A stretch of 64,000 nucleotides of DNA from NCBI GenBank assembly GCA_032358255.1, contig JAULBX010032257.1, positions 1 through 64,000 of the forward strand, given 5' to 3'. This document shows, in pieces, positions 1-64,000 of this stretch. This stretch comes from Heterotrichella gracilis. Taxonomy: Eukaryota > Sar > Xanthophyceae > Tribonematales > Xanthonemataceae. The notes beneath the pieces were generated by a model. The model ran no database searches. It had not been told where the DNA came from and saw only the letters and a program-made list of their open reading frames with translations. The translations under genes and the position numbers were made by a program. The stretch's first letter is position 1; every line of letters begins with the position of its first letter.

Positions 1-1436
1 GAGGCGGGGGGCCAGGTGATGGCGGGGGGGGAGGGGGGAGGGGGAGGGGGAGGCGCAAAGGCGGAGGCGGGCAAAGGAAGAAGCGGCAAGCACAGATCCA
101 GTAATCCAGTGGTTAACCCTTACAAACGCTAAACAGCTGAATGAGCAGCAGCGTGTGTGGGGTGAGTGGGATACCCAGTTGTGGCTCACCGCACTGCCAT
201 GTTGGGCGCGGCAGCCATCAGGAGCTGTTGGCAGATATTGACGCTTGCTCGTAAGCCTTGAGGACTTACTATACTTGCATCTACAGTACTGCTGCTGTCC
301 CATATATGGCGGTAAGGGCCAAGTGGCTTGGCTCCATCGGTTACTGCCACCCTGAATCCTGGCTTGCAATGCAGGCTTCTATGATGTGTAACCAAAACCA
401 ACGTGCAATTCTGCGTTCAGTGCATGCTGGCACTGGCTAAGCCACTCAGCGCAACAAAAAAAGCCCAATATATGCATGCATGCATGCATCTGCCATCTTG
501 CATGCATTGCGTTCCTACACAGCACGATTACCCGCCAGAGTATGTACAGCGTCCTGGTTGCACAGCATACTGCTTGCATCGTAACAGCTTACAACGGCAA
601 AAGCAATACCCAACATACTTAACGGCGACGTATACAGTATCGGATACAGTATCAAAGGGTATCCTGGATACGTCGACGATGCCGTTCATCCCGCGGCGCC
701 TCCAGTCACTTGCATGTTGCTGTTAAACCTTTGACGTGCGCTTCTATGGGTTTCTATTGTAACCATGTTGACTACATTACTAGAGTTGGCGTCAAATTTT
801 GGCTGTGATTTTGTTGGCGCCAGTTCATGCCAACTTGATTCCGGGACGCTCCGGAACGCTTCTATGCATTCTTGACCCTGCACACTTGTACCTGCACCTT
901 TTCACCATCCAATATCTGCTGCAGCGCAGCCTCAGCACAGGGTTCACGATAACCCTGCCCCGTCCCGGTTTGGTGCATGCGCCCAACAGGGAAAACGCGA
1001 TGATTGCTGGCTGCAGGCGCGGCTCTCGCCCTACCCTGGCAGCAGGTGAGGGCCTCCTACTCGCTGAATGCGTAACCACAAGGATTGCACACCTCCCTTG
1101 CCGTACAGCGATTTTTTCTGCATATATGGGCGGATTCACTCAGACTGTGAAACACCAATGCGTACATGCCACACCTCATGTGCTTGCAACTATTGCTTGT
1201 TTTAGTGCTTGCAAGCCAAATCGCAGTGTAAGCAGGCGGCTGGATGTGGTGTGAAACAAGTTGTATGCTGCACCGGGTTCAATGGGTTGTGGTTAATGTG
1301 GTGACGGGGGCTTAGGGTTTTGAGTTAGGGTTTTATGTGGTATGGCAACTTTTTTGATGATGTGGTGTTGAGCTTGGCACGCCACCGCGCCGATAATGCC
1401 AGCAACGTGACCCTGTTGTGCCTCCCAGGGAAGCAG
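1..1436. other. 5' flank of the Cys-rich gene, no gene seen
   Basis: The window opens with a G-rich purine tract (about 1-80). A run of GCATGC-type repeats lies at about 474-490, and a TTAGGG-like stretch lies just upstream of the first exon (about 1310-1335). Short open frames occur on both strands, but none has cysteine periodicity, a recognisable domain or consistent splice partners, so none is called. The stretch probably holds the promoter and 5' UTR of the + strand gene starting at 1437; no TATA box could be assigned with confidence. Confidence 0.5.
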
Positions 1437-10176: not shown

Positions 10177-10326
10177 TCAATATTCCAATGATATTCCCAT
10201 GAGTGCCCCTGGAGCACTCATCGCCATGGCAAGGGTGCGCTCTCATGCTGCGGGAGGCGCCACGGTGGCGTCATGTGGCTTAGGGTTTAGGCTTCAAGAT
10301 TGAGGGTGCTAACTACTGAGTGTTCC

Positions 10327-14958: not shown

Positions 14959-17900
14959 CTAAACCCTAAACCATGCCACAAGGCTGCAAGGCACAGACTT
15001 CATTTCCAGCCGCGCGCGCACCTCTGAGTGTTCTTCGCAGAACGCCACCGGCGAGCCCTCGTCTGTGAATGTCATGACGTTCTCCTGCGCCCTCCCGCAC
15101 AGCACGTGGAAGCTGCAGGTGCATTTGGGCATGCTGCAGTGGCTGCAGGGAAGGGTGGGATAAGGGGTGAGGGTGTGACGGTATAGGAGTGGCAATGGGG
15201 CCATGCAGCCATGCCGGCGTGTGCAAGGCCTGTGGTCCAAGAATCACCACCCCATCATGGCATGGCATTGCAGCCTTTCTTGTCACCGTTACACCCCCCC
15301 CACATGACCATGCACCCCTCCGTCCACCCCACCCACATTACCTCACACCCATGCACCCACCCCACCCACTCACATGACCGCGCCGCCCGCCTGCCTGCAC
15401 TGCATGCACTCCTTCAGCGCCGCCTGCCTGGACAGCCCATCCAGCACCACTCCACCGATGTTGTCTGGGTCGCGCAGCAGCACCTCGGGCACCCAGAGCG
15501 CGCAAGCCAGGTGCATGAAGCAGCGCCCAGAGGGCAGGCGGGGCACGTGGCCGGGGGCTCGCCACCGACCCATGGACTCAACCTATGGGCAAGGGTGGTG
15601 GTGAGCGTGGAAATCTTAATCCATGAAGGAAACAATTCTACAAGACGAAACAAGGTATTATCAATTTTCAGATTTTAGCCCTTTGGGAAACGAAGTATGA
15701 AAGCACAAGAAGTGACGATAAACAACATGGTTGTACATATATTACTGTAATGTGGATGCTTGCCACCGCCCCATGAAACTGTGTTTAGGGTTTAGGACTT
15801 GGGTTGAGGGTTTGGACTGTCCTCCCCTGCAGTGCACATAGCCCCAATCCCACATGCACCCCCCGCCCCGCCCACACCTCCCGCACCACATGCCCCGTGA
15901 CAGGGCACAGGCAGCAGTTTGCTCCCGCTGGGTTCAGCTTGGCTTTGCACCCGTCGCATATCCACTTCCCGGTGGGCACCGCCTTGATCCCGTAGCACAT
16001 CTGGTGCACGCACACGCTGCAGCCGGGGCCGTCGCAGAACACAATCATGTTCCTGCACGAACAATATCCCACAAAATCGGATAATATAACAATTACATAA
16101 GTAGAAATTGAAATTGAAATATGTGCGAGGGCCTCTCAGCAACCACTGGTTATGGTGCAGGCCTCGAGGTTGAGGGTTAAAGACACAAATGCCATGTGCA
16201 TACGTAAGCTGCAGCCGGGGCCAACGCAAAACACAACCATGTTCCTGCGCGCGCGCAAGGGCCTCTCAGCAACCGCTGGAAAGGGGGTTCGGAAAGATAA
16301 GTAGGACACCATTCATCCCGCGGGGTGCTTCCAAGCCTCCCCCACAGCGCCCCCCCGCCCACATACAGGGCACCGCGCACGCACGGATATCTCCCCCACA
16401 CATTGGACCAACACACACACCCTCACCCCCCACGTACCCATCTCCTTGCTCCGGGTCCCCACACACGCTGCATGCCTCGTCCTCCTTGACCTGGTCGGGG
16501 AAGACAAGCGTCATCTGCACAAGGGAGGCGTTTGGGGGTCAAGATTGGGGGTTCACACTGAGCCGCACCAGGCAGGGGCACATGTAATGAGTATTCGTAT
16601 TTGTTATTTGGTTTTCCATTTGTTACAGCGCAAGGCTAATGCACGCACCGGTCTGAGCGTGGGCAGGCGGTCTGGATCCTCCGCCTCCTGCGTCTCTGCA
16701 GTCCGCGCAAGCAGCTCGATGCCCGACACGTCCTCCCCGCGCTGGTGGCTGCTCAAGGTATCCCCCTTGGACTTGCGCCGCGTCTCAACGCCCGAAGAGG
16801 ACTCGGCAGCAGGGACCAGCAGGCGCCCAGCAGACGCCTCGGCCTTTTCCCGGGCCTCCCTGAAGGGTGGGGCATTTTGAGGCATGAAGTAATTGAAAAT
16901 AAATGACAATTTCCGAAACGAAATCAGAACACCAACGCTTTGAAAGTCCAAATTCAACGAATGAAAGCTAACATAAAAAGGAAAAAATACCTGGGCGGGT
17001 TTGCGAGCCGAGGCGCGGCGCTCGGCGGCCTGCCGGGCTTGCCAGACGCCACCGATGCATTGTCAACGCCCCCCGGGGCGTGCCGCTCGCCCTTGCGGGG
17101 CTGCTTGTCGCCAGCGCCCTTGGCGGGGGCGCTGGCGGGCCGCGCCGCCTGCTTGGGCTGCGGCTTGGGCTGCGCCGCAGGGGCGTCGCCGCCAGGCTGC
17201 TTCCCGCCCTTTCTGCCCACAGCCTTCCCCAGGGCAGCATCAGGATGGGCCGCCGCCCCTGCCCCCCGCGCCGCCGCCAGCTTCCCATCCACCGCCGCGG
17301 CTGCCGCAGCAGCAGCGGCGGCTGCCGCCGCCGCCTGCGCCTCGACCACCTCCCTGGCACGGCCCGCGGCCAGCGCCGTGAGGCCGTCGGCGGCGTCGGG
17401 GACGCGGCGATCCGACTCCATCTCCACATCCATCTTGCTGGATCCCCGGCTGGGCGCCACGCTGTGCGTGCTGTCCTCCAGAAGCCGAAGCACCTCGCGC
17501 TTCAGGGGCTTGGTGGGCTGTGACGGCGGCGGGGGTGTCGCGCGCGGCGTCGGGGTGGCAGACGCCGGCCAAGTGGCGGGGGCTGGCGCTGCTGCCGCCG
17601 ACGCCTTCTTGCCTTGCTGCTGCTGCGTGGGGCGGGCGAGTGGCGCCGGCGGTGGCGGTGGTGTCGCGGTGGGGGGTGGCTTTGCGGCTGGCTGTGGCGG
17701 CGCAGGTTTGGCGAGCGGCTTCGGCTTGGGCTTGGGTTTGGGTTTGGCTGGCGCAGCGCTGGGTGGTGGTGGTGGCGGCGGTGGCACGGGCTTGGCTGGT
17801 GCTCCAGAGCTCGAGGGCGGTGGTGGTGGAGGTTCTGGCGTGGGGTTGGTGGTTGCCGCGGTTGACGCTGCAGGTGGGGCCGGTCCCGCCTTGGCCGCTG

Positions 17901-28570: not shown

Positions 28571-31394
28571 ATGCCGGGCATTCGTCCCTTGGAACACCAC
28601 GAACTCGCCACCGTGTTTTACTCTGGTGGTACGTCCATCATATGCATATGCATGCATAGTAACCCAACAGGCGTTCCATATGCATGCAAGCAGTCAGAGC
28701 CCAAGTCTGGTGCTATCAGCACCCTAAACCCTTCTATACGTTATGGCAGTGGCAAGGCATATGGTCCTAACGAGGGAATTAAAGTCCTTTCTTGACAGTA
28801 TCAACCCATTCCGTTTTGTATTGTTGGGGCAGTGGCAGGTGTCTTACCCTGTCAGGTCGCACGGTGGGTGTCCCCATCTTGTGTGCAAGGCTATGCACAG
28901 CCAATCAGAAGTGTGCCTTGCATACAACCACCACAGGGGTCAACTTCTCCCATACAGGCACCCAACCCTGTTGTGGTGTTCAACACCCTAAACCCTTTTG
29001 TTCATTTTGGCAGTGGCGGGTGCCTTGACGTGTGAGGTGGCGCGGTGGGCATCCTCCATCCTGTCACCCAGGATATGGACAGCCTACCGTGGTCTGGACG
29101 TTGCCAAGAGGCGCAACTGGGACACGCGCTGGTCCTCCACCCTGCACTCCCTGGTGGTCACGGCGCTGTCTGTGTGGCTCACGGTCTTCTCTGGCCTGTT
29201 CAAAGACGACAACCCTGATGAGGAGGTGCGTGGGAACCTTAAGGAGGGCACATATATATATAGTGCGTTTCCACAGGAACATGAACAGTACGGTGATGTT
29301 TATTGGCATGTATATTGCAGGGGTGCACTAGTGAACAAGATTTAACCTCCCTTGAACGTGATTCAACCTCCCTTAATTGTAATTCAACCCGTGATTAGTG
29401 CAGGTTAAGCACTAGGAAATGTGTGTGGTGCAGACGGGGCCTGTTGGGAGCCATGGGGGCACGCGTGCAGCAGGCTTGCATTCCTGGATGCTATTGTCGC
29501 CTCCATGGATGGTTCTGCATTGTGTGGCATCCTGATCCGGCACTAAGCAACGTGTGTTGGGTGCAGTTGGCGCCTATTTTCCGGACATCTTTCTGGACAT
29601 TCGCCACCCTGGGATACACCCTGGGATACTTCCTTCTGGATTTCTTCCTGCTGATCGTCTACTTCCCAACGGTGAGGGTTGACAGCTGTGCCACTGCAGC
29701 CACAGGAGGTTTAAGGGTGCTGATATTATACTTTGGTCCAATATTTGACAAGGTCAAAGACTTGACCATCTTTGGTCATGCTGCTTTGGTGGCCACATTG
29801 CAATTGAGTAGGAGGGAGATGGGGATCCACCAAGGGACGGTGCTGATGATCCATGTGCTGATTAACCTAAACTCATTTTAAAAATATCACTGTGGGCGGT
29901 ATGGAGATGGGCACCACCATGTAGCGGCCCTGGCGATCCATATGCTCAGCAGTTTAAATTTAACCAAAACAAAAATCTCTGCTAAATTCCTGCTGCTGTG
30001 GTGGCCACGTTGCAGTTGGGTGGCATGGAGATGGGCACGCACCATGTGGCGGCGCTGACGTGCGTGGCTGCATGCATCCTCCAGCCCCAGGCAGCAAACT
30101 ACACCCTTGCCATGCTGGCCACTGAGGTCACCACGCCATTCATCAACGTGAGGTGGTGGATGGATGAGGCGGTGAGTGACAAGGGCGTAGCACGTGCCTC
30201 TTCACCTTGGATTACCATGCCCTGCCTTCAGTGCCTGCTAGCCAAAAGAAACTGCTCTTATATATTGCGCCCTCGAAGCCTTTTCCCATGATTCTTCAAT
30301 GCTTTCGATGCCTCCATCCCCTGCCATGCGCCATGCTATAAGTACCTTGTGGACCCGCTACCAGCCCTGTGATTGAATGCCCAGTCAAATGGCATTAGCA
30401 CTGATGTCACCATGCCCTGCCTCCAATGTTTGCATACCCATGCCCCCTCAAAGTCTTCGGCCATGCCCTTGTAATGCTACTGATACCCTTCTTCCCTGCC
30501 ATGCTGTGAGCATCTTTTTGGGCCCTCCATCGAAATGCCTGATTCTGGAGATGTAACCCTGTAGGGCATGTGTGCAAGGGAATTTTCTGTGCATTATGTC
30601 CGTGAATGTACCCTGCAGGGCATGAGGAAGTCGCCCTGGTACTCCATCAACGGCGTGTTCATGCTGGTCTCCTGGACGCTCTTCCGCATCCTCATGTTCC
30701 CGCTGTTCTTCCACGACGTGTGGAAGCACAGGCAGGACATGCGCCACGTCACATGGCTCACCATCATACTCATCACCGCCATACCAACCCTCCTGTTTGC
30801 GCTTAACCTGGTTTGGTACCTCAAGATCGTGCGCGGGGCGCTCAAGCTGTTCTCTGGCAAGCTGAAAGCGGTAAGTAAGAGCCTGAATGGTAGAAAAAAC
30901 ATGTAAAAAATGCAATGCTGTGGGTCCCCGTCCGCCAGTGTGCATACCTTCCTTCCCTTTCTTTCTGGGGGATTGGTAGCTACTGTTGGCAAGCCTTGGC
31001 GATCAGTGTGTGGTCTGATCAATGCGAGTGGGACGTAGGGCGGTTTGTGCTGTTCTCTGGGAACTGAAAGTGATGAGTTTTTTGCCAGGTTATGCCATTG
31101 CTGTGGCTGTGGGTAGCCACAGTTTGCAAATAACGTACCCTGGGTGCGCAGTACGTGTGGGGTTTGGGGTGCGGTGAGAGGTGGGGCAGTGCCGGCTGGT
31201 GTTGCTGTCATCAGAGACACAGGGGGGGAGGTGTTTTGTGTTTTGAAGCCCTGTTACACGGTGGGTTGGGTGATTGGAGATGGGGCCCTTTTGGGTGGTG
31301 GCCTCACAACCTCCTCTTGATGCAGGATGATGATTTGAACGCCGGAAACAACATCTTCAGCCAGTCACCCAACACCAGTAAGAAGTTGATATGA
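28571..31394 (+). CDS. TLC-domain (TMEM56/TLCD4-like) membrane protein, 283 aa
   Basis: Exons: 28571-28628, 29014-29225, 29567-29671, 30016-30171, 30619-30870, 31326-31394; phases close. TRAM/LAG1/CLN8-type features: basic WDTRWSSTLHSLVVTAL at the start of the domain, FATLGYTLGYFLLDFFLLIV, the GTHHVAALT histidine pair, the acidic EVTTPFINVRWWMDE turn, and long hydrophobic helices around FMLVSWTLFRILMFPLFF and LTIILITAIPTLLFALNLVW. About six spans are likely. It ends SKKLI, where KKLI fits the KKxx ER-retrieval signal, so ER/early secretory membrane is inferred. TLC proteins act in ceramide synthesis or lipid sensing; the TMEM56 subgroup has no firmly assigned reaction. Introns 1 and 3 hold echoes of the following exons. 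Confidence 0.87.
28826..28902 (+). repeat. Exon echo of TLC exon 2
   Basis: Repeats the GGCAGTGGC acceptor and the first ~65 bases of exon 2 (29014 onward), with about 25 percent divergence. A weaker relic of the same boundary, preceded by CCCTAAACCCTTCT, lies near 28725-28770, making a ladder of two echoes before the real exon. Confidence 0.75.
29779..29950 (+). repeat. Two exon echoes of TLC exon 4
   Basis: 29779-29863 copies GTGGCCACATTGCAATTG and the following exon start. 29896-29950 copies GGTATGGAGATGGGCACC and onward. The true boundary is at 30016. Both copies carry stops or indels. Confidence 0.8.
30213..30520 (+). repeat. Tandem duplication inside TLC intron 4
   Basis: Two diverged copies, at about 30213-30335 and 30405-30500, share ATGCCCTGCCTXCA, the CCCTCXAAGXCTT stretch and CCATGCTXT(A/G)AG. 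The unit is about 195 bases and lies wholly in the intron. A small copy of the exon-5 acceptor (CCCTGTAGGGCATG) sits near 30558. Confidence 0.6.
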
Positions 31395-33391: not shown

Positions 33392-36300
33392 GGTACTGTG
33401 CCTCCCTGCCTGTGGGTGATACTTGCGACGAATGCTGGCGCACCTACATGTGGTTCGAGAAGAAGCGGGTGGGTACCCATGCGTGCACTTTTGCCTGTCT
33501 TGGCACGCCTCCTGCACATCATGCACACCTTGTTTGCAAAGTACGGTAGCCCTCGTCGTGTGTGGTGTGGTGTATATGTGGTGTGTGTGGTGTTATGATG
33601 GTGTGTGTGTGGTGTGTGTGGTGGGGCGGGCAAGGCCACATGCATGCAACCTGGGTGTGAACCTTCCTTCCCTGCATGCGAGTAATCTTGGGCCATAGGT
33701 GGGCAGAACCTGCTGAGTCACCACATCAAACCTATGGTCTGGAAGGACTGCAGGGGCATTTGGTCATTGATGTGTCATAAGTATGCACCTTGCACACTCG
33801 TTTGTGCCCCGCTCCTTCCCGCGCAATAGCTCAACGTCTTCCATGCGCTAATTCTGTTCATTGATTTGTGCCCCTACCCCTTCCTGCGCAGGAGGGCGCT
33901 GGGGCCATGTGTGCGATCGCTCCCTAGACCCTAAATGCCAAAGCCAAACCCTAAACCCTACTGTCCTGCTTGTGCAGGAGGATGCTGAGGCCCTGTGCAG
34001 GAGTGAGGTGGAGGCGGGCATTCGAGGTCCGGGATGCGCACAACTGGAGAGGTTGGATGCCCTAGCGCATGAGATGCTGTATGCAGGTAGGGTGGGTCGC
34101 TGGAAAATGAGATATCGATCAAGCCAAACTACACATGTTAGGGTGCAGTCATGCAGTTGGATTTGCATGTTCGGTTTTCGTCCCCTAGCACAATCTCACG
34201 TGTTGACCCTCTCCCAGGCCAACGTTTTGGGATATAGCCGGTATACCACTGTGTTTGGTTTGGAGGTGTTGCTTGCATCATTCAATGCAATCTTGCCAAG
34301 GGTTGATCGACATTGCATGGGCAAGTGGCGGTTATAGTTGTGCATGTAGTTGTAGTTGCACTTTTAGTGGCTTTCCTAGCTGGTGTAATCGGATTTTTGA
34401 TTGTTTGCAGGCAGCTCCGGTCACCTCATTGAGGCCCTGGCAGCACTTTTATTTGTAATTATGATTGCGACTGATTATGATTGTAATCGATAATTGTAAT
34501 CGGAGGTTTGATTATTTGCAGGCAGCACCGGTCACCTCATTGAGGCCCTGGCAGCACTTTGGTATCTGTCATGTGATTGTAATTGTGAGTGTAATCGGTA
34601 ATTGTAATCGGACGTTTGATTGTTGTGCAGGCAGCACCGGGCACCTCATAGAGGCGCTGGCGGCACTGGCGCACTCAGACAGACGGGCACAGGCGGGACG
34701 CAAGCCAGGTGCGGTTTAGGGGTTGGAGGGGTTGTTTAGGGTTTAGTGTTCAGGGTTTAGGGTTTAGGGCGCAGGCGGGCACAGGCGGGGCACAGGCGGG
34801 CACAGGCGGGGCGCAAGCCAGGTGCGGTTTCGGGGTTGGGGGTCCAGCCATTGTGTGCATTGTAGGAGGGCGAAGGTAGCGGATGTTGCTGGCTTGGGTG
34901 TGGTGACACGGGACGGGGTTGGGTGATGGAGGGTAAGTGGCTTTTGAGTGCGCTTGCGGCTGTCTTGAATGTGCATATGCATGTGGCAGGTGAGTGGAGA
35001 GGTCGCTTGTGATTGCGGCGGTACATGCATTTGGATGTGACTGCTTCAGGGTATGGCATAGCTGCGGCTGAAGCCCCCTATGCATGCATGTTGCTAATAC
35101 CTGCGCGTGGCCATAGCTGGAGAGTTCAGCTAAGAGGCAGGGCGGTAGATCAAGAGGCCATTTGAACCCATGGATGGAAGTCAGGACGTGTGTATGGAAT
35201 GCCTACCATACGACAACTGTTACGTGGTTAATCACAAGCGTTCCGGCACAATAGCCAGATCAGCAATCAGCCTTGCGCCTGCCGTATTTTTCATCGGTCT
35301 ACCCCATCGGATGCGCCTGGAGCCCCTTTATGTGCGGCTGTAGCTGCGGCTAAACCCCAAAGCCTAAATCGCAATCTAAACCCTAGAACACTGTGTGGGT
35401 GCAGCTGCGGCGCGTACCGATGACGCGGTCCTCACCTTCCCAAGCACCAAGGATGACTATGCAGCTGTGGCGGAGCTGCCCGACGCAAAAAAGGTGGACA
35501 CGAAGTCTAAACCCTCAACCAAGCATCAGAACCCTAAACACTGAACCCTGAACCCTGATTGCACCAGGGATGGCCACGTAGCAGTGGCGGAGCTGCCCGA
35601 CTCAAAGAAGGTGGGCACGCAGCCTCCAGGAGGGCCCCCAGGTGTAGGGTGTAGGGTGTAGGGCACATGCACAGAAAGCAATGCCACCTCCCTGACAACC
35701 CCCTTATGCCCCCTCCTTACCCCCCTTGCACCCACCTCCACACCCTCCTCCACCTGCCTCCATATCTACACCTTTCGTCGCATCCCTTTGCAACTCCCTC
35801 ACATCCTTTGCAACCCCTACCCCTTCCTTCACCTCACATGCCCGTTACTGATACCTCCTCACCCCCCCTCCTCCACCGCCCTCCTCCCTGCAGGACATGC
35901 TCCTGAACCTGTTTGACAGCGCCGACAGGGACCACAAGGGCAGGCTGGATATGGACCAGTTCCTGGGTGAGTCAAAACCCTAGGAGAGGGTTTGTAGGGT
36001 GTATGATCCAAAGTTATGTAATAATGGCTCAGGTTGTCGATGGGAAATGGCACCAGGTTTCCATAAGCATGCACAAAATGATCCTGGGGTATGGCGAAAG
36101 CATTGGCGAGCACAGACTGCAGGCCGTGGCCTCTCACTCCCCTTGCCCTCATTATCGTTTCCCCCATACGGTACCCCCCGTAGCACCACCACGAGTGCCT
36201 CACCCCCTCACTCCCCAGATGTGATGCATGCGCTTGGCGACAACCTCCTCGCCCGCACTTGTGCAACTTTTCCCCGTGATGCATGCGCTCGGCAACGATC

Positions 36301-36970
36301 TCCATACCCTTCCCCACTCACCTCTCCCCCCCCCTCTCCCAGGTGTGATGCATGCGCTTGGCGACGACCTGAGTGAGCACAGCATGCAGGTTATCATGGA
36401 GGCGCTGGAGGGGCATGGCCTGGTGGACAGGCAGCAGCTCATGGACGTGGTGGAGGTGAGGGAACACAAGCTCTGAAACCCCAAACCATCAACCCCAAAG
36501 TTGGGGCCACGGGCGGGTGAACGGGCAGCATCTCATGGAGGTGGTGGAGGTGTGGGAAGCACAAACCCTAAATTAAAAACCCTGAAGACGGGGAGCGGCC
36601 TGGTGGACAGGGCGCAGCTCATGGACGTGGTGGAGGTAAGGAACACAAAGGCTTGATTTCGGAACCCGTTTAACTCTGAAAATGAGGCGGGCTGGGGAGC
36701 CAAAAACCCTGAAGCAGAACCATAAGACGGGCGGCAGGGATCTGCCTCGAGGCTGCCCTTGCGCGCACCTGTTCCAGGAGGTGTTTATTTCTACATTATG
36801 TTATTTTTGTTTCTCTAATCAATATTCAATTTGTAATTATTAATTAGCTTTTGCTTGCATGTGGGCAGGCTGAGGAGGTGCGCGCGCACAACCAGCTGGC
36901 CAGCGTCCTCAGGCGCATGCACCTCAGGCCAGGCTGGTGGACGGAGCCGCAGGTCAAGTCGGAGCTGTAG
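33392..36970 (+). CDS. EF-hand protein, N-terminus unresolved (212 aa visible)
   Basis: Exons: 33392-33468, 33978-34086, 34631-34708, 35405-35493, 35894-35966, 36343-36455, 36869-36970; phases agree between all seven. The visible chain starts with a CxxC region (GDTCDECWRTYMWFEKKR), continues through an Ala/Leu-rich helical segment (TGHLIEALAALAHSDRR), and then an EF-hand with loop DSADRDHKGRLD followed by MDQFL. The next helix pair (EHSMQVIMEALEGHGL, RQQLMDVVE) looks like a degenerate second EF-hand. Calcium binding by the first loop is plausible; the partner is unknown. The C-terminus ends WWTEPQVKSEL. Exon 35565-35620 could be an extra or alternative exon. Nearly every splice junction in this gene has echo copies, more than in any other gene here. 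Confidence 0.7.
33881..33915 (+). repeat. Exon echo before EF-hand gene exon at 33978
   Basis: Copies CCTGCGCAGGAGGGCGCTGG, matching the CAGGAGGATGCTGAGG start of the true exon. An even more decayed copy of the upstream intron text lies near 33806-33835. Confidence 0.65.
34385..34560 (+). repeat. Ladder of two exon echoes before exon 34631
   Basis: 34385-34450 and 34496-34560 each contain the intron end (GTAATCGGA...TTTGATT), the CAG and the first ~45 bases of the exon (GCAGCACCGGTCACCTCAT in the second). The copies are about 90 percent identical to the true boundary. Period about 110 bases. Confidence 0.92.
34768..34842 (+). repeat. Donor-side echo of exon 34631-34708
   Basis: Repeats GGGCACAGGCGGG two or three times and then GCGCAAGCCAG followed by the donor and GTGCGGTTT, as at the true junction 34708. 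It lies about 100 bases downstream, just after TTTAGGG repeats. Confidence 0.88.
35565..35621 (+). repeat. Donor-side echo, or alternative exon, of 35405-35493
   Basis: Copies the last ~50 bases of the exon and its donor. The frame stays open, reading DGHVAVAELPDSKK where the exon reads DDYAAVAELPDAKK. It is preceded by an AG and followed by GTGGGC, so it could be spliced as an extra cassette. Confidence 0.8.
36210..36302 (+). repeat. Two exon echoes before exon 36343
   Basis: 36210-36250 and 36271-36302 copy GTGATGCATGCGCTTGGCGA and the following bases of the exon start, the first with its own CCCCAG. Confidence 0.85.
36506..36650 (+). repeat. Two donor-side echoes of exon 36343-36455
   Basis: 36506-36565 and 36588-36650 repeat the exon end CAGCTCATGGACGTGGTGG and a donor. 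The second is nearly identical to the true end over about 45 bases and keeps a strong GTAAGG donor. Confidence 0.9.
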
Positions 36971-42924: not shown

Positions 42925-45900
42925 TTACACATACAGCTGTATGAGCTCATCTGAGACAGCGGCAGGGGTGAGCACACCCAAATCAGTGAAGAGTAGGGAG
43001 ATGTAGCCTGCAGGCGAGGGTGCGGGGTAGGGTATTTCTCAGGGTATNNNNNNNNNNNNNNNNNNNNNNNNNNNNNNNNNNNNNNNNNNNNNNNNNNNNN
43101 NNNNNNNNNNNNNNNNNNNNNNNNNNNNNNNNNNNNNNNNNNNNNNNACAAGGGTGTTGGTGTTACGGCACAAGGTGGTGAGCACACCTAGGTCGGTGAA
43201 GAGTAGGAAGATGTAGCCTGCAGGCGCGGGTGCGGGGTAGGGTATTTCTCAGGGTATACAAGGGTGTTGGTGTTACGGCACAAGGTGGTGAGCACACCTA
43301 GGTCGGTGAAGAGTAGGAAGATGTAGCCTGCAGGGGAGGGTGCTGGTGTAGGGCGCTGAACAGGGTTCGCTAGATTTTAGTAAGGTATACCAAGGGTGTG
43401 GCTAAGGTATACCTACTTGACGAATAGAATTGCGTTGGTTAGCCTGGCCAATACGCAAGGGTGATGAATCGCCAGTCATTGGCATGGCAATGTAGGCTGC
43501 GAACAAGGAACAGAGGCGATGATTGCAGTGCCCAGCTGCAGTCCCGGCTAGGGTTCACAGCTGTGGTTTATGATTAAAAGTTGTGGGTCAGGTACTACTA
43601 TTGTGGCGCCAACCTTTGGTCCCAGGACAGCTAGTGTATCGGTACCACCATCAAGGGTTGAAAACAGCGGTTTAGGGTTTTTAGGGTTATAGGTTTAAAC
43701 TCACATGCTGGCGTGTAGTCCCTGCTAGGGTTTCGGATGGTTGTGTTTCCTGGCAGCAGCGGCCCAAAGTCCACGTGCTTGGGCTCCATGGGCAGGTCGT
43801 CCTGGCTCAAGGGGTAAAGGCGGGCAAACTGCAGCAGGGGGAAGGGAAGGGGATGTATTGACAAGACAATAATACTAAGTGATGATGATGAATGATAAAG
43901 AAAAAACAATAAAAAATAATTGGGTTCAGGGGGTACAGGGGGTAATTGCAGCAGAGGAGAGAACGGGACATCATGTATAGAAGGAACATATCTGGCTTTT
44001 CAACATTATTTAGATATTTTGAATGTAAATAAACAAAACGAATTAGATAACATTACGTTTACCGTTCTTATTATGTTTGCAACCCACCTTGTAGCTCTCG
44101 GCCGCCACGTAGAAGGGCACATTGTGCGCCTTGGCCACCAGCGCAATCTGGTATGTCCCCAGCTTGTTGATGACCCCCCCGTTCTCCACCACCCCCTCCG
44201 CCCCCACCAGCACCATGTCCACGTGCTTCATCAGGTAGGCCACACCGCTGTCAAGCACCACGGTCACGGGCACCTTCAGCTCGTCCAGGGCACGTGCCAT
44301 GAGGAGCCCGGTCTCATCGGGGCGTCCCTCTGTGACCACCACTGTGAATTTGCTGCCCTGCGGAGTAAAAATGGCAATTTTGGGCATGCTATTAACAATG
44401 AAGATGCCACCACCGCAAATTTGCTGCCCTCTAGTGCGGAGGGCAAATTTGTCTCAAGCTCGTCAGGAATTGAAGGCATTTGCATTTATGGGATGTTGGA
44501 AACGAGGCATCACAGTCACGGATCCCCAGAGCTTGTCACAGGGGCCATGAGGGGTTGTACTACATATTCAAGCTGTCGTCCACAGAGGGAGCACTGTCCC
44601 CGTCCCCACCTCCGCCCACAATCAGTGATTTGAAACCACGCACCTTTTGCATCGCATGCCGCAGCAGTGCCAGGACCACCCTGGAGTTGCCATGGCACAG
44701 CACCGTGCTACCTGCCTGATGAAGCACCACCCCCTCCTCCTTAACTTCTCTACCCCCACCTGCTCAACCGCTGCATACCTCAGAGCAGCACCACCCCCAC
44801 CACCCCCATCCCAACCCCACCACCCACCTTTTGCACCGCATGCCTCAGCAGCGCCAGCACCACCCTGGAGTTACCATGGCACAGCACCGTGCTCCCCTGC
44901 CTGATGAATCGCTGCCCCTCCTCCGCGATTGCTTGCCGCGCCTTGGTGGAGGTCTCCGCAAACATCCTGCCACGCTGCGGGGGGGTGAGGGTAATTGCGT
45001 GAGCTGTGCGTTCATTTCATGAATATTATAATAGCATTCAAGCCAGTCTTAGCAATCCTGCCGCGCTGCGGGGGGTGGGGGATAATAGGGTGAGCATAAG
45101 ATTCGTTTCATGAGCATTTTATAGCATTTGAACCCAGTTTTGGCAAACACCCTGCCGCGCTGCGGGAGGTGGGGGGTGGATGCGCTTAGCGTGGGTGCAT
45201 AAATTCATAACCGTAAGAACATCATTTATGAATCATAAATGATAAATTATGATGCTTGTCCCCATGGGGTGGCTACATCCTGCATGCGGTGGGGTGCAGT
45301 ATCCATGAGCGTGTCAAATGGATGACAGCCTCCCCATGAGCTGTATGATTCCTCCCCCCTCTCCCTCCTCGCCAAACCCGAGGTTCAAGCTCAGAGGGGC
45401 GCATGGTGCAGCGCAGGGGTTTCCAAGCCACTCCCACACCCTTGCAAGGGCTTTCCACACACCAAACCCAGAGTCCAGCCCGCCCAATGCCCCCACTCCA
45501 GCCCCAAACCCCAACCAAGGGTCTCCCACCCACCCACCCACCACACCCACCACACCTCTATGAGCCTCCTCTTTGCCGCGTCAAAGTCCTCTAGCTCCAG
45601 CTCCGATGTGCGGGTGGTGTAGCGCAGGAACAGCTCGCAGCCAGCCTTGAGGGAGATGCCGGTGGGGTTCACGCTGCGGGGCGGATGATGCGGCGTTAGG
45701 GTTTATGTATTGGGTCTATGGTAAGGGCGAGGGTGAGGCATTGGGGTTTGCCATTGCATTAGGGTTAATCCTTAAAGTAAAAATTACCATCCCATAAGGA
45801 TTTCCCGTTGCATTAGGGTTTACCGTTGCTGAGCGGCCTCCCTCCTCCTCCAGCCCCCTCCCTCTCCAGGCCCATCACAGTCGAGGGTTTGTGATTGACA

Positions 45901-46652
45901 ACTACTCAGAAGGTGTCTGTCAAGGGTTTAGGGTTTACCGTTGTAGCGCCGCCACTACTTCATTGAGATCCCTCCCCAGCCACATCGATGATCATACTCT
46001 GGGGTTTAGGGTTTCATGTGTTGGGGTTTCGTGGCAAGGGTTTAGTGTTTACCGTTGTAGCGCCGCCGCTGCCTCCTTGAGCTCCCGCTCCAGCCCCATC
46101 ATGGTCTGGGAGGTGCTGTTCAAGATGACCTTGGTCAAGGCCTGGGAGGAGCCACAGGGTGGTGGGTTAGGTGATGGTGGGTACGTTAGGTGATGGTGGG
46201 TGTGGTGGGTGACGATGGGTGTCGTGGGTTTTGATTGGTGCGGTGGATGATGGTGGATGCGGTGGGTGGTGGGGGCGATGGGTGTTTCGCCTCAATTTGG
46301 GGGTTGATCCTCATGGTACGGTTGATGGGTGCAGTGGGTAAAGTACCAATCAAATCGAGAATAAATAAGAGCGGGGCGGGTGGTGCACACAGGAGGATGG
46401 GGCGGGGTCCCCTGGCAGCTACTTAGAAAACCCTAAACCCTAAACCCTGCCAGGGAGCTGCGACTTGCCTTGATGGCCGCCACCGCTACTTGAAGAACCC
46501 TAAACCCTGAATCCTACACTATAAATCCTGGTAGGGCCCCTCGCACTTACCTTGATGGCTGCCACCGCTACCGCTGTGTCCGGTGACCGAGCAAGCGCTT
46601 CATGGAACTCCCGCACTATGGGGTCGGTGGCGCTGCTGCTGGCTGCACACAT
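42925..46652 (-). CDS. Translation initiation factor eIF2B subunit alpha, 310 aa
   Basis: Exons in minus order: 46652-46551, 46141-46053, 45673-45556, 44974-44828, 44357-44088, 43828-43705, 43007-42925; 933 nt, phases close, 310 aa against about 305 in human. eIF2B is the guanine-nucleotide exchange factor for eIF2; the alpha subunit senses eIF2 phosphorylation. Diagnostic stretches: [70 protein letters not shown], and the family C-terminus [20 protein letters not shown]. The start is an ATG that opens the first exon ([20 protein letters not shown]). All seven exons lack indels. Echo copies lie in five of the six introns and upstream of the start, and an assembly gap interrupts the echo array before the last exon. 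Confidence 0.95.
43048..43147. other. Assembly gap (100 N)
   Basis: A run of exactly 100 N, the convention for a gap of unknown size. Both sides carry copies of the same 110-base repeat, so the gap probably hides additional collapsed copies. Confidence 0.97.
43148..43370 (-). repeat. Tandem array of eIF2B-alpha last-exon echoes
   Basis: 110-base units (43148-43257 and 43258 onward). On the minus strand each contains CTGCAG and the exon start coding [14 protein letters not shown], then breaks into intron sequence. The true last exon starts at 43007 on the other side of the gap. Confidence 0.93.
44396..44440 (-). repeat. Echo of eIF2B-alpha exon 5 start
   Basis: Minus strand copy of GGGCAGCAAATT and the following ~25 bases (true exon start 44357). 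Confidence 0.75.
44640..44714 (-). repeat. Donor-side echo of eIF2B-alpha exon 4
   Basis: Repeats the last ~70 bases of exon 4 (true end 44828), including AGCACGGTGCTGTGCCATGG and the AAAAG/GTGCGT donor, with few substitutions. It lacks the first half of the exon. Confidence 0.92.
45050..45175 (-). repeat. Two acceptor-side echoes of eIF2B-alpha exon 4
   Basis: Around 45055-45082 and 45148-45175 the boundary CCGCAGCG(C/T)GGCAGG recurs, separated by intron text (TTCATGARXATTXTAWARC) that is also repeated. Period about 95 bases; true boundary 44974. Confidence 0.82.
45815..46000 (-). repeat. Two donor-side echoes of eIF2B-alpha exon 2
   Basis: 45925-46000 and 45815-45895 repeat the exon-2 end and donor (GGCGGCGCTACAACGGTAAA in the true copy at 46053), with increasing divergence away from the exon. 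Confidence 0.82.
46455..46495 (-). repeat. Donor-side echo of eIF2B-alpha exon 1
   Basis: Copies AGCGGTGGCGGCCATCAAGG and the donor with few changes (true end 46551). It lies directly beside CCCTAAACCCTAAACCC. Confidence 0.82.
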
Positions 46653-48057: not shown

Positions 48058-52756
<4,699 letters not shown>

Positions 52757-57539: not shown

Positions 57540-59303
57540 TCGTAGTGGTCAACGGTATCACTGGGCCTCCCACGACCGTCAATCCTTCCTCACCTGCCAA
57601 GGCTGGGTGTGGGTGGGGCTTGCACCCCACCTTGGGAGCCAGAGCCCTGTGATCGGGTGCTGGACCTCTTGTACCGAGCTGTGGCTGGCCTCAAGCCCTT
57701 GGCACTCCCGCATTGTCAACCTTGGCTTGGCGCAACTGCAGAGCTTCCACTGCTTTACAACTTTACAGCTTTATAGCTTGCGTGTGCGGCTTCAGCAGTG
57801 GGTGTCACAGCAATTTGAGCCTTTGCAAAGCAGCTGAATCAGATAGTTATTGTTAATGCCATCACCAGTGCCTTATAATTCCAGTGATAGCATTCCCAGC
57901 AAAAAAGAATTCCAGCAATAATTTCAGCAGCAATTGCAACTGCGTAGCAAAACTACAAAAAACAACAGTATTGCACAGAATATACCCATTGACAATTGAA
58001 ATCATTTGTGGCTTGCAATGTTTGAGCAGCATCCATACGTGACATTCAATATGAGGTAGTTATCCTTGAGCCAATATTATCAGCAGTTGTTTTCTTGTTC
58101 TACATTGATGAAAGCGTACCGGTACCATTTTGAAATTCACAATAGCCAATTAAATTTGATTGATTGTCGGCGAGGTGGAACATGCCCTGTTGATTGTCTA
58201 AATACGCCTCTTTGCGTAACGCAACGTAACGGTTCCCTTCCTTCCTTCCTGTGTGTGTTGTGCCTGGCTGTCACCTGTGGGCGTTTTCTTTCCTTACTCT
58301 CTTTCATATGGTATATGCATTGCACAATTTGGAATGAACTATTTGCCCACGCCATCACAGACGAGCCTGGAGGCATGCATGAATGTAGGAGCCTCTCTTG
58401 AGGCTAGTATGTTGTTGTGGCTCCTGGACCAGAGAGTTGATTCATGACAATGTCATGCAGTGTACAACTTAAAAGCCTCGCCAAACATTTCTGATACCTG
58501 GCAGCCAAATTGAATGGTGTCAAATTATTTTGTATTTTAAAACGAAACCCAGTAAACAAAACCAAGTCCCAGCCTGCCAGTGGTAGTAACTGACGCTCTG
58601 TACACTGTGGCAGCCATACCTGCACAGGGCAGCCATGCTGCATGGTATGCCAGCCAAGAGATTGCCATCAATGATTTGTGTGCACCCCATTATACCAGAC
58701 GCCCTTCGCTTCCTCACTTCTAATGGCAGTGCGGCATCCGAATATGGTTTACACTTAGCCTAATCTATAGACGAGTGCCGGAAAGCGCCCCTGCCCCCCT
58801 CCCCATGTCTGCCGCACCCCTGCGCAGAGCAATATAAAACCTTAAACCCTAAACACCCTCTGCCAGGGCATGAGACCCATTAACATGCTCCACCCCAAAC
58901 CCCATCTCGTCAAAACACCCAAGGAAAGGCGTACCCATCCACAAAAACCAGCAAACCCTGAACCCTAAACCCTAAACAGCTGGAGCGCGCAGCAATCGCT
59001 GGCCTGCCACCACCACCCCGCCATGGTGCCTAGTTGTAATGCTCCTCCCGTGTGATGTGAGATAAACGTTTCATCGCGCCACGATGCGGCGCAATATCCC
59101 CTCGCCCTACTTCCCCCGCACAACAGGATCCCGTGAAGCACCCGCTGGTAGCAGTCGTACTGCCTCGACCTCCATGCCTCCAGGCTGTTGCTGATGAGCC
59201 CCAGCACCACCTCATTGGTGGAAAAAGGGAGGAAGGGCGCTGGGGAGGTCAAAGTGCTGGATGAAGCGGGGAGTGTAGCGCGACCAACTCGCCACCCAGC
59301 CCG
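57540..59303. other. Intergenic, with an echo of the PI4K 3' end
   Basis: About 1.76 kb. Largely AT-rich and featureless from 57850 to 58750; CCCTAAA motifs at 58840 and 58956; a copy of the PI4K terminal coding segment at 59110-59225. A 76-codon frame at 57607 continues LRR-free and is not called. Confidence 0.5.
59110..59225 (-). repeat. Echo of the PI4K coding end
   Basis: Minus strand copy of the last ~95 coding bases (EVVLGLISNSLEAWRSRQYD in frame), where the original reads EVVLGLISDSLDAWRSRQYD. It runs past the stop position with LHGILL. Confidence 0.93.
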
Positions 59304-62300
59304 CTACAGTATCCCGTTGAGCACCCGCTGGTAGTAGTCGTACTGCCTGGACCGCCATGCATCCAGGCTGTCGCTGATGAGCCCCAGCACCACCTCCACG
59401 CACTGGCCCTCAGTGAGATGCAGGCAGAAGCGGCGCCGCAGGGCCGCCAGCACGCGTGGCCCCGATTTGAAGCACGGCGCGCCGCATGGCGCCATCATGT
59501 CTGCTAGGAGGGTGATACGGTCCGCGTGCTTGCGGCAGGCCAGGAAGCCCTGGATGCACAGGACCTGCGGAAGGGGGAGTGGGGGGGTGGAGTTCAACGG
59601 CACAGATCCTGCAGGTGTGGTGGTGGTGGTAATGGTAATGGTAATGGTGGTGGTGATGGTGTGGTGAGGATAAGGGGGGTGATCGGATGCATGGCACATC
59701 ATGTTTGCGAGGAGGGTGATGCGGTCGGCGTGCTTGCGGCAGGCCAGAAAGCCGTGGATGCACAGGACCTGGGGAGGGGGAGTGGTGGTGTTTGTGTAAG
59801 GGAGGGGGGAAATGAGGCGCAGGACAGTGGCGGTGGTGGTGAAGGGGGGATGCATGGTACTGTCTGAGCGTGGAGGGTGCGGTGGTCCACAGGTATCCAA
59901 TCATCATGGTCAGAGTGCTTTGCATAAAGTACCAACTACATTGCGCACTTGCTCGCCCTACTTAACCCTACCCAAACCCTCCCCCACACCCTACCTTGAA
60001 GTAGCCAAACAGCTCGCTCCCTCTCCCCTCCGAATTTGAATCCATCACCTCAAGCAGCTTCCGCGTCAGATCCCAAAACCCTACTAAACCCTACCACACC
60101 CCTCCCCCAAACCCTACCTTGAAGTAGTCAAACAGTTCGCTTGCCCTCCCCTCTGAGTTTGAGTCCATCACCTCTAGCAGCTCGCGGGTGAGCTTGAAGG
60201 GGGCGGACTCAAAGTTGACACCCCCGGGGGAATTGGAAAGCATGAACCCAAAATCAATGTGGATAATGTGTCCCGCGTCGTCCAACAGGAGGTTTGCGTT
60301 GTGCCTGCAAGACAAGGCAAAATCATAGGACATAATGATGGCATTAGGTGGTAAACGACAGAAGCATGCATATACCGCATTCATGCTATGTGCTGAGCAA
60401 GTGTTGGCCTGAATAAGCTAGGGTTTAGGGTTTAAGGTTTACCTGTCCTTGATCTGCAGCAGGTAGGTGACCAGGGAATATCCAGCCATGGACTCAACAA
60501 ATGCGCGCTGGGCACAGGTGAACTCGGGCGTGCCCTGCAATGGTGGGGAGGGGGAAGGGTTAAAACAATCCCTAAACCCCGAGAACCATCACTCAGGCAT
60601 GCCCCGCAGAGAATTGATGAAAACCCGCCATCCAATACATGGCTGCTACTACAATTGCTGTGGTTCACTTCTGCAACCGCTGCGCAAAAGGAGCTCCAGC
60701 GGCTGGTCCTTGGTGTCTTTTCTAGATATGATTACACTGTTTATTGCCAATTTACCTCTGTGAATTTTGCGCAGAAGAAGTCCCTGAGGCTGGTCCCCGG
60801 CGGCGTCTTTGCCTTGATGTTGTGGATGGACTGCGTGTCCGGGATCATCTCAATGAGCGCGGTGCGGTTGGAGGTCACAAGCACCTCGTAGGGGCAAAGC
60901 CACAGGGGAAGCTGGGCCTCCTGCAGGTGGGAGTGAAAAAATGGGTTAATGAATAGTTACCCCTTTGAGACCCTGGTGATACCCTAGTAAGACCCTGGTG
61001 AAAGCCCTAGCGACCAGCACCTCGTAGGGGCGACAGGGGGAGCTGCGCCTCCTACGGGAGAGGGGTGGAGTGGTGTTAGCCCCTTATGCACCTTAATATG
61101 CTGTGCATAATCACTAACATCCTCACCAACACCAAATTCTCGTCCTCCACACACCCTTGAAATGTTGCAAATTACTACCACACCCACCAGCCCAATTCCT
61201 CACCCCCCTCTCCCATCCACCCGCCCTGAAACTGTGGAATGCGCGCATGAACCACGCGTCACTATGTCCACATGCAACATGCCATGCCTAACCTCCCCCC
61301 TCACCCTCCACACACCCTGAAAATATCCACCCACCCTGAAAATGTCGTGGAATGCGCGCATAAACTGCACCGCCAGCAGCTCCTGCCTGCAGTCGTCACC
61401 GCTCTTCACAATCACAACACGCAGGTCCCACCCGGGGCGCCGCCCGTGGCTAGACTCACACGCGATGCGGGCGCGCTTGGCGGCAAACCTGGGGGATGGG
61501 AGTGTGGGGTGGGTGGGTGGAACCACGCATGTGGCGCTGTGCTTAGCGGCCAACCTCCAGGAGCGGTTGGGGATTGCAACAACGGTATGGGATGTTAATT
61601 TCATGCATTCCAACACTGCAGGGTCAGGGTTGCATCATGCTCACATGTGCTTGCATTTGCTTGCATGTGCACCACATACAGCCTAGGGTTTGGGGTTTCA
61701 TGGGCTCCACACCGCGTGTGCAGTGCACCTCCCCCACCACCCACCACCCACCTCTCCCCAAACACCGCATCCGCCGCCAGCTTCTTGGCGTCCACCACCG
61801 CCTGCCGCCCCCCGTCGCCCCCACCCTCCGACCCCACGCTGTCGTGGCGCATGTGGGCGCTGAGCTGGGGGGTGGTGGCCAGCTGGTACTGGCTGGGGGG
61901 CCCCGCAGCCACCACCCCCGACTGCTCGGCGATGCGCGACAGGGCCTCGTCGGTGGGGATGCGGCGGTGGCGGGGCGGGTGGGTGCGGATGCGCAGGTCC
62001 ACGCCGCCGTGCACCTGCGGGTGGGGTGGCGGGTGTGGGTGCGTGGGTGTGGGTGTGGACGTGGGTGTTGGTATTGGTGTCGGTGTCAACATCGCAGTGC
62101 TTCTGCCTCAAGATGCTTATGTTACGCATGGATGCCAGTCAACAATGACCCAATGTGTTTGTGCATGCGGAGAAAGACACCTACATATGGCCAACCCCAA
62201 ACCCAGCATGGCCCTCCACCCACCTTGAACGTCACTTTCACGCTAGGCCCAGCCGCTGCCCCAGAGTCCTCCCGCCTCCCAAACCCCATGCGGGAAAGCA

Positions 62301-64000
62301 GCCCCGACCGCCGAGGGGCACCCATCCCCTCTGCCCCCTCCCCACCACCCCCGCCACCCGCATCCGGCTGCCCAGTGGTGGTGGTGGGTGTGTCGGTGTC
62401 GGTGTCGGGTGGTGGTGGTGGTGGTGGTGTGTCGTTGAGTACCTCCAGGTGGAGCGATACAAGTGGCGCCTCCCCGCGAAGGCCAGCCATGGCGGTGTTG
62501 AGGCCCCTGGAGAAGGGAGGGTGGGTGGGTGGGATGTAGGGTGGTGGTGGTGGTGCATGCATGCCATTCAGAGAATGGCGGGGCAAACATTACAACTAAA
62601 AGGCAATAGAAGGGGCAGACTCCAACCAACGAGATACCACGTGGATGGTATTGCAATGCCTGAGATGGATGAGGCGCACATCTGTCAACTTCACATAATT
62701 TCGTCTTAATCCATCTCATGACGTTGGTATCAACCCCCAGCACCCCTCACCTTGTGAAGGAATCCGACCTTGCATGCCCCCCCTTGCCCCCACTGGGCGG
62801 CTTGCCAGCTATTGCCACACCATTGGCCGACCCCAGCCCCAGCTTCTTACTCAGCTGCTTCAGCACTGATTCGCCTGTGGCGGGCTGCGGGTGGGGCGGG
62901 GGCAGCGGCTGCGAATTCGAGGCAAAGGGGGTGGATGGGGCTATGCCTAGGGTTTCGCCCCTGAGCCCTAGGGTTTCGCTCCGAGGCACGGCGGCGTGGA
63001 GGTGATTGGGGTCCGGGTGGGGGGGTGGCCGCGGGTGGGGTGCTGGGGCGGTGGGTAGCCCCAGGGGGGTGAAAGGGGGGGTGGCGTTGGGTGGGGAGGT
63101 GGGGATTGCGCCGTTGGGATGGGGATGGTAGTCGGGGGCGGGCGCTTCAGCGCTGCCGGGGCCTGGGAAAGGGAAACGCGGAGGGTGTTCAGCAGGGTGT
63201 AAATGAACTTCCTTGGTATATAGAGTGGTTGTCATATATGCAAGGTTTTTAACAGGTGCATAGGGTTTTGAGCAGGGTCTAATCGAGGACTCACCTGGCC
63301 CCGCTGCCGCGTGCGACCCCATCCTCCCCTCTCCATCCGCCCCTTCTCCCCCCTCCATGGCCTCCAGGGAGTCGGCAGTGTCCATGAGGGGATCACCATC
63401 ATCACCGTTCAGCACTTCAATGTACAGCATGAAGGGGGCCTTGGTCCTGCGGGGTGTGGGGGTGGGAAGAAATGTGAAAAAAGATGGTTGGGGGGTTATG
63501 AGCACCCAGATGTACAGCATGAAGGGGGCCTTGGTCCTGTGGGTGCGGGGGTGAGAGAAATGGGAGAAATGGTGGTTGGGGTGTTATGAGCACCTTGATG
63601 TAGAGCAGAAGACTTGGTCCTGCCGTGTGGGTGGGGGGAAAAGTGATAAAGAGTAATTTTACGACTCGAGTGACTGAAATTTGAGGTCCAAACTACGTCA
63701 ATATACAGCAATTCTATTTACCTACATTCCAAAACTACAGCCAGATTTGCAGTCAACCTTGCGCATGCGGCGCCAGGCAGTTCAATCCTGGCATCGAGTA
63801 TGCCTTTTGTACTTTGAAGAGGGCCGAAAATCCCCCTCCAACCACACACCTCCCCAACACCCACCATCCCACCCACCCACCTGGAATTGAGCAGCACACT
63901 CTCCTTGTGCGCCAGGCGAAGCACCCTGTCGTTGTGCCTACCCATGGGGAACCACACAGCCACACCGCTGGCAGCCGCGTGCGCAATCTCCCGGCTGATG
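59304..64000 (-). CDS. Phosphatidylinositol 4-kinase beta (type III), 5' part outside window
   Basis: Exons in minus order: 64000-63881 (cut by the window), 63446-63295, 63162-62751, 62506-62224, 62014-61752, 61488-61335, 60920-60756, 60534-60443, 60304-60118, 59564-59304; about 695 aa visible, phases agree. It phosphorylates phosphatidylinositol at position 4 on Golgi and trans-Golgi membranes. N-terminal visible part: KESVLLNSRTKAPFMLYIEV, the start of the catalytic region. Then about 300 residues of Pro/Gly/Ser-rich insert, then VIVKSGDDCRQELLAVQ (nucleotide loop), LPLWLCPYEVL, SMAGYSLVTYLLQIKDRHNA (catalytic loop DRHxxN), HIIHIDFGFMLSNSPGG (activation DFG), and the family C-terminus SRQYDYYQRVLNGIL. 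All catalytic residues are present. Five introns hold echo copies. Confidence 0.95.
59690..59780 (-). repeat. Acceptor-side echo of the last PI4K exon
   Basis: Minus strand CCCAGGTCCTGTGCATCCAC onward repeats the first ~72 exon bases (true start 59564). Six substitutions over the region, four of them synonymous. Confidence 0.94.
59990..60080 (-). repeat. Donor-side echo of PI4K exon 60304-60118
   Basis: Repeats the last ~80 exon bases and the GTAGGG donor (true end 60118). In frame it reads LLEVMDSNSEGRGSELFGYFK; most differences from the exon are at third codon positions. Confidence 0.94.
60995..61065 (-). repeat. Acceptor-side echo of PI4K exon 60920
   Basis: Minus strand copy starting GTAGGAGGCGCAGCTCCCCC and covering about 50 exon bases, with a 6-base deletion and several synonymous changes. 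Confidence 0.9.
61205..61270 (-). repeat. Donor-side echo of PI4K exon 61488-61335
   Basis: Repeats TTCATGCGCGCATTCCAC and the following AGG/donor context (true end 61335). A weaker further copy lies near 61140-61170. Confidence 0.82.
63500..63630 (-). repeat. Two acceptor-side echoes of PI4K exon 63446
   Basis: Minus strand: CACAGGACCAAGGCCCCCTT at about 63540 and a shorter CAGGACCAAGTCTTCTGC copy at about 63625, both followed by repeated GTGCTCATAACXCC intron text. Confidence 0.88.

Follow-up and report, generated by a model that had tools for sequence, protein, structure and literature searches.

Exon echoes in Heterotrichella gracilis: junction-spanning copies that lengthen introns and often carry telomere repeats at their seams

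Passages of one study (PMC8355091) describe how fill-in by CST/Pol alpha-primase, followed by end joining, makes small tandem duplications at DNA breaks, and name such duplications the commonest short (<100 base pairs) insertions in human. Passages of two others (PMC7215372, PMC2246262) concern short interstitial telomeric sequences that were gained at double-strand breaks and in some cases came with a duplication of the break site, read as the mark of a staggered break; such duplications were a minority, reported at 3/66 loci in horse, 6/130 in rodents, and 4/25 in primates. In a case of intron gain, as presented in the relevant passages (PMC3443670), a tandem duplication over an intron-exon boundary gave a new intron in one gene. 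Here we describe exon echoes, which are copies of exon borders lying in the adjoining introns, in a 64,000-nucleotide stretch of the alga Heterotrichella gracilis (contig JAULBX010032257.1, positions 1 to 64,000; hereafter "the window") and in other regions of the same genome.

The echoes resemble the duplications of PMC8355091, as its passages present them, in being local and direct and, we suggest, in arising from overhang fill-in, and the same complex fills telomere ends; they differ in that their units are mostly of 80 to 250 bases, cluster at exon borders, and have many telomeric seams. With the described interstitial telomeric insertions they would share a telomere repeat at a repaired joint and a direct duplication of the flank, but here the telomere motif stands at 28/74 seams of recurrent exon-border duplications. 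The intron-gain case likewise involved duplication over a boundary, whereas the algal introns lengthen recurrently and lack the signature of intron creation.

Natural insertions in plants are reportedly also tandem duplications in gene-rich DNA, for which nearby nicks on opposite strands have been proposed, and the echoes share both that setting and that form. We know of no telomeric seam or splice-junction pattern in those insertions.

Exon borders are copied into the adjoining introns

The window is the start of a 163-kilobase (kb) contig in an assembly of 68.5 megabases and 903 contigs; Myrmecia bisecta, a trebouxiophyte alga, was the most similar (83%) among the 120 chaperonin relatives listed. 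Genes were modeled with a simple splice-aware finder trained on Pfam-anchored exons, which split the window into five models, partly merged: by Pfam, a PHD-finger protein, eIF2B-alpha, a class-III aminotransferase (ornithine aminotransferase by alignment to solved structures), PI4-kinase, and one merged model comprising an FGGY sugar kinase, a TLC-domain protein, and an EF-hand region. Most counts leave out 17.0 to 20.3 kb of the window for its low complexity.

Self-alignment of the window (E<=1e-3) returned 40 direct pairs, 29 of them spaced 100 to 300 bases and 11 wider, 7 of the latter lying in a low-complexity coding stretch at 17.5 to 19.5 kb; inverted matches amounted to five self-palindromes and two other pairs. 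Twenty regions elsewhere in the genome gave 61 direct pairs at 88 to 446 bases and 0 at 500 to 10,000, with only four inverted pairs, every one a palindrome. When 101 pairs (E<=0.1, spacing <=500) were placed on the gene models, 64 lay across a splice junction, 21 were intronic or intergenic, 12 exon-internal, and 4 part-exon.

As a control at the borders themselves, the 60 exon bases beside each junction were compared with their own intron, with flanks from other loci as the null, in 210 predicted introns from the window and other contigs (introns with a flanking exon <60 bases or a length outside 80 to 1,500 bases were excluded). The exon end was copied on the donor side of 44/210 introns and the exon start on the acceptor side of 33/210 (p<=0.005 each), so that 74/210 introns hold at least one echo, and the reverse complement gave 1/210 on either side. 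Copies were found for 6/168 and 5/174 exon pieces lying 60 to 120 bases from the junction, for 1/97 and 0/107 lying at 120 to 180 bases (exon bodies), and for 1/139 and 2/145 far exon ends; the last two classes pooled give 4/488. Donor-side echoes lie downstream and acceptor-side echoes upstream of their exon. An earlier note on the window had proposed both this polarity and a systematic copying of borders, and both hold, in the window and in most sampled regions, far above the reverse-complement, exon-body, and far-end controls. Its estimate of about 45 copies in nine of twelve genes was not reproduced: in the window we count 29 copies at 23/93 borders (reverse complement, 0) in the five partly merged models.

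The families and their seams in the window are as follows (percentages are copy identities, periods are in bases).

16004..16251, minus strand: PHD-finger gene exon start 16004-16052 (acceptor 16052) and upstream echo 16196-16251; 82%, period 192
28802..29084, plus strand: TLC-domain gene exon start 29014-29083 and upstream echo 28833-28901; period 182
36198..36658, plus strand: EF-hand region, ladder of border copies 36220-36246, 36276-36301, and 36504-36549, with exons 36343-36455 and 36588-36635; tandem array 36410-36641
42967..43366, minus strand: 3' part of eIF2B-alpha, copies 42967-43047, 43177-43257, and 43287-43366; a 100-N assembly gap (43048-43147) lies between copies, so spacing in this family is unreliable
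44635..44924, minus strand: eIF2B-alpha exon end 44828-44924 (donor 44828) and downstream echo 44635-44740; 88%, period 184
45813..46106, minus strand: eIF2B-alpha exon end 46053-46106 and two donor-side echoes, 45939-45993 and 45813-45882
51085..51417, plus strand: ornithine aminotransferase exon start 51373-51417 and upstream echoes 51240-51282 (95%) and 51127-51174 (93%)
51283..51332, plus strand: seam behind the nearer of these echoes, with heptamers AACCCTA, AAACCCT, and AAACCCT, in the intron starting at 50913
51416..51748, plus strand: ornithine aminotransferase exon end at 51523 and downstream echo 51605-51748; period 189
52090..52313, plus strand: ornithine aminotransferase exon end 52090-52158 and downstream echo 52208-52276; period 118
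52520..52692, plus strand: ornithine aminotransferase exon start 52637-52692 and upstream echo 52523-52577; 89%, period 114
59123..59791, minus strand: PI4-kinase last exon 59304-59564, acceptor-side echo 59699-59768 (91%) and copy of the 3' end 59123-59188 (89%)
59956..60192, minus strand: PI4-kinase exon end 60118-60192 and downstream echo 59995-60065; 87%, period 123
60070..60117, minus strand: intron part of the first PI4-kinase copy up to the seam, with three TAGGGTT-type telomere heptamers, in intron 59565-60117
60877..61067, minus strand: PI4-kinase exon start 60877-60920 and upstream echo 61013-61051; 92%, period 136
63411..63638, minus strand: PI4-kinase exon start 63411-63446 and upstream echo 63501-63536; 88-base tandem array 63420-63638

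Families were counted in gene bodies (138.8 kb, 251 introns; regions L029-L032 entered only this count and its follow-ups). Of the 60 found, 50 span a junction, 6 touch an exon, and 4 lie in introns only; donor-only families number 28 and acceptor-only families 20. Echo introns are especially frequent in regions L009 (6/11 introns), L019 (7/9), and L028 (7/10).

The distance between copies has modes at 80 to 120 and 180 to 200 bases, close to the periods of 95 to 210 first noticed; most lags lie between 80 and 250, few exceed 350, and 5/177 exceed 360. BLAST suggested a sharp lower limit of 88 bases for the unit, but this was discarded, since an ungapped lag scan gives lags of 60 to 80 bases. 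The unit includes intron sequence: the intron start is duplicated in 15/41 introns with a donor echo versus 9/86 echo-free introns, and the intronic part would be detectable by itself in 22/56 families. Echo introns are also longer than others (median, 379 versus 292 bases; P=3.5e-5), in line with the lengthening originally suggested. Echoes are carried by 1/26 introns below 200 bases, 33/48 introns of 400 to 700, and 0/14 introns of 700 to 1,500, the last of which we suspect to be misannotated.

The earlier note's interpretation stands for the border copies, the longer introns, and the absence of a dispersed element. Three of its parts are unsupported or overstated: its AGGT precedent for intron creation (see below), its statement that echoes explain much of the intron sequence (9,298/64,013 intron bases, or 14.5%, lie within a detectable local copy), and its gradient of better preservation nearer the exon, which is true in 3/6 two-copy ladders.

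Apart from the echoes, the PHD-finger gene contains a repeat-rich, low-complexity coding stretch (17000-20300) with a G+C content of up to 73%, and palindromic self-matches lie at 10387-10454, 39652-39698, 40006-40163, 56134-56193, and 61726-62063, one of them 47 bases long with 93.6% identity.

Telomere repeats at the seams

The most informative feature of the echoes, absent from the earlier note, is the telomere repeat at their seams, where one copy meets the next. AAACCCT/TTTAGGG is the commonest heptamer family in introns (839/62,837 heptamers in the window and L009-L028), with a density of 13.1 per kb in introns, 3.8 outside gene bodies, 0.48 in exons, and 1.0 in shuffled introns. It is the telomere repeat of this genome: TTTAGGG arrays begin contigs C70 and C140, and a four-unit TTTAGGG pattern has 209 matches genome-wide (overlaps counted; 100 places listed), while the backward pattern has 0. 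Echo introns hold 17.2 telomere heptamers per kb versus 8.6 in echo-free introns (P=2.5e-5; P=7e-4 for introns of at least 250 bases).

The seams were examined in introns of up to 700 bases, and 74/77 seams were kept, those with <10 usable bases being excluded. Within 40 nucleotides of the seam, telomere heptamers cover 14.6% of the sequence (n=74) and are present at 28/74 seams. In echo-free introns, positions matched for splice site and for distance from it have a coverage of 3.1%. Coverage is 8.4% on the echo's outer flank (P=0.015), 7.1% at the corresponding position of the other copy (P=0.005), and 2.7% outside the unit (P=9e-5), and 19 further heptamer families matched in composition have a median seam coverage of 0.5%. 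The enrichment has the same direction in three subsets (0.224/0.029, 0.084/0.035, and 0.100/0.029). Some seams carry runs, such as the AAACCCT units in L027, and in L035, L038, L046, and L051 telomeric arrays lie directly between border copies, some of them in ladders. In the reverse test, 6 of 28 arrays of at least four units lay between direct copies (6/20, then 0/8) and 0 between inverted ones, versus 38/798 random positions (P=0.0025). Telomere repeats are thus a mark of these duplications; they may have been added during the event or may show where the break occurred.

The orientation of the heptamers differs between intron halves, with TTTAGGG counted 332 times in the first and 68 in the second and CCCTAAA 270 times in the second and 169 in the first; seams mostly show TTTAGGG near donors and CCCTAAA near acceptors. 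From donor to acceptor, introns lose G (40% to 15%) and gain C (16% to 43%) in the window and L009-L028. The enrichment of G- and C-type heptamers at intron ends was accordingly dropped as a clue to joint geometry, being indistinguishable from this gradient. As a separate observation, regions L013, L015, L018, L020, and L021, which are poor in echoes, all have a low density of telomere heptamers, 0 to 3.6 per kb.

Placement, decay, and competing explanations

The alternative that survives best, although we consider it rather unlikely, is that ordinary slippage or unequal exchange makes tandem duplications anywhere, that selection alone leaves those at junctions and in introns, and that telomere-like tracts are low-complexity sequence that aids slippage. 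It accounts for the polarity, which needs no special process, since a junction duplication is neutral for the protein only with its inner copy in the intron, and for the neutral decay described below. Moreover, uniform placement with purifying selection already makes the junction-spanning class the largest, with predicted shares of 0.48 for junctions, 0.32 for intron-only, and 0.14 for exons. However, only 4/60 families are intron-only, compared with 13 to 18 expected after a rough detection correction that is perhaps too generous; given this weak correction, a true border preference is possible. Slippage should also favor short units, yet the lag mode is 80 to 120 bases. Furthermore, of 20 heptamer families with equal composition, that of the telomere alone is enriched at the seams.

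A further difficulty for slippage lies in other noncoding DNA. Noncoding local copies were found for 321/2,011 noncoding windows in introns (16.0%) and 151/3,468 outside gene bodies (4.4%), a difference of three to four times between two classes that the model scores as equally noncoding; these windows overlap and are therefore not independent, and some DNA outside gene bodies may still hold unpredicted genes. The reverse-complement control gave 0.6% in both. Beyond the 64-kb window, at a score of at least 17, the counts were 216/1,654 in introns versus 39/2,236 outside gene bodies, and a small set labeled intergenic had a local copy in 3/130 noncoding windows.

We give little credence to the idea that the echoes are remains of intron creation by tandem duplication of an AGGT-bearing exon segment (the Rogers model), the precedent that the earlier note had invoked. 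In potato, a duplication over an intron-exon boundary did give a new intron (PMC4974935), and in the alga AG stands at exon ends with a frequency of 0.57 and GT at exon starts with 0.32 to 0.48. Yet the donor flank resembles the acceptor flank of the same intron in 4/210 cases versus 12/210 for the reverse complement, and neither AG nor GT is enriched at echo junctions (Fisher P=1.0 and 0.12). Compared in sense with its own intron end, the intron start shows a slight excess of likeness, 7/170 at <=0.01 (Kolmogorov-Smirnov [KS] P=0.08). Two related candidates were also rejected: recursive splicing at AG|GT, because exon-end AG and exon-start GT are unenriched at echo junctions, and pairing of intron start and end as a guide to the outer site, because the reverse-complement excess of 12/210 was absent from a dedicated test of 170 introns (KS P=0.29).

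The echoes have diverged in the manner of neutral DNA, whereas their exon counterparts remain under constraint. Exon and echo mismatch at 12.5, 12.2, and 20.5% of codon positions 1, 2, and 3; mean copy identity is 0.86, and 59/65 echo indels are not multiples of three. Through the junction, identity is 83.3% in exon-versus-echo columns (n=3,874) and 77.4% in intron-versus-intron columns (n=4,322). In our reading, the echo has drifted by about 12% at the neutral rate and the exon by synonymous changes only, and two intron copies drift twice. GT is kept in 26/30 echoes and AG in 20/26, close to the ~77% expected from a per-base divergence of 12.5%; echo splice dinucleotides are neither purged nor protected. 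At one locus (L010), a 58-base border copy (4606-4663/4719-4776) is 98% identical to its source, whereas the flanking intron parts look unlike each other; gene conversion or a very recent event could account for it.

A role maintained by selection, with the echoes serving as functional alternative exons or as decoy splice sites, is hardly plausible: many do retain splice dinucleotides and a few copies, such as that in L010, are nearly perfect, but codon positions 1 and 2 decay at 12% and 59/65 indels shift the frame, for which reasons we reject a coding or alternative-exon role. In ornithine aminotransferase, the part of the model that matches solved structures (residues 203 to 365) contains no echo peptides, in line with the outer-site splicing proposed below. 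An assembly artefact or a dispersed element (introner or transposon) is highly improbable, since, although one family abuts the assembly gap at 43048-43147, the copies are diverged (identity 0.86, 65 indels) and spread over many contigs, and 55/60 families match near home alone, in agreement with the earlier claims that families are not transposons and are private to one junction, the latter qualified by the weak matches elsewhere of the other five.

Break repair as a proposed source of intron length

In our judgment the echoes are probably copies left by short tandem duplications that straddle a splice junction and lengthen the intron, made by break repair with participation of telomere enzymes. 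The copies lie head to tail. The unit, of about 80 to 250 and up to about 350 bases, would be duplicated when a staggered double-strand break falls within a gene, both overhangs are filled in, and the ends are rejoined, the overhang thereby being doubled. CST/Pol alpha-primase fill-in or telomerase repeat addition may act on some of the broken ends; alternatively, telomere-like tracts may be the places where breaks happen. Splicing would keep the outer donor or acceptor, as the conserved proteins suggest, and the inner copy would become intron. With the outer site in use, the protein would be unchanged and the duplication tolerated; the intron would gain one unit per event, and repeated events would build ladders.

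Several observations weigh against this explanation. The 6/28 arrays between direct copies are not clearly above random intron positions (82/800; P=0.067), and the edges of copies lie close to arrays (4/6) no more often than to random points in introns (88/130). The telomere repeat is also raised in the second copy (7%), and part of it was therefore already inside the unit before duplication, while the orientation at seams follows the general strand bias of introns, so that the extended end cannot be identified from it. The exon share of the unit is below that of uniform placement (mean, 66.6 versus 88.7; KS P=1.4e-5), and such short shares hint at a border preference or at trimmed alignments. 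Loci are uneven, with echoes in 0/4 introns of L013, 0/6 of L020, 0/5 of L021, 1/12 of L015, and 1/11 of L018, and there are 25 matches between loci (20 direct and 5 inverted), which we assume to be paralogues. Finally, the predicted gene models are good but imperfect, that of CCT-zeta having several inserts missing from four homologues, and we infer the use of outer sites from conserved proteins.

These observations describe a real, recurrent process of intron lengthening, composed of known kinds of event, in which exon-border duplications with telomeric seams form a new combination. A literature search from which subscription journals were mostly absent found no report of recurrent junction-spanning duplications that lengthen introns, or of telomeric seams in them. 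Introns here seem to lengthen through the harmless scars that repaired breaks leave in the DNA. More tentatively, telomere-end repair might be a main engine of intron growth in this algal lineage, acting on breaks in transcribed genes, preferentially near exon borders, and filling in and joining them with telomeric repeats at the seam, in which case introns would be layered records of repair, filtered by the junction duplications that splicing tolerates.

The origin and lengthening of introns are open questions, to which each echo brings an intact exon copy, a decaying copy that serves as a clock, and a seam that hints at the repair pathway. Intron growth, the choice between duplicated splice sites, and the handling of breaks within genes thereby become testable in one genome. 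If true, telomeric seams at exon-border duplications would link the enzymes of telomere ends with gene architecture.

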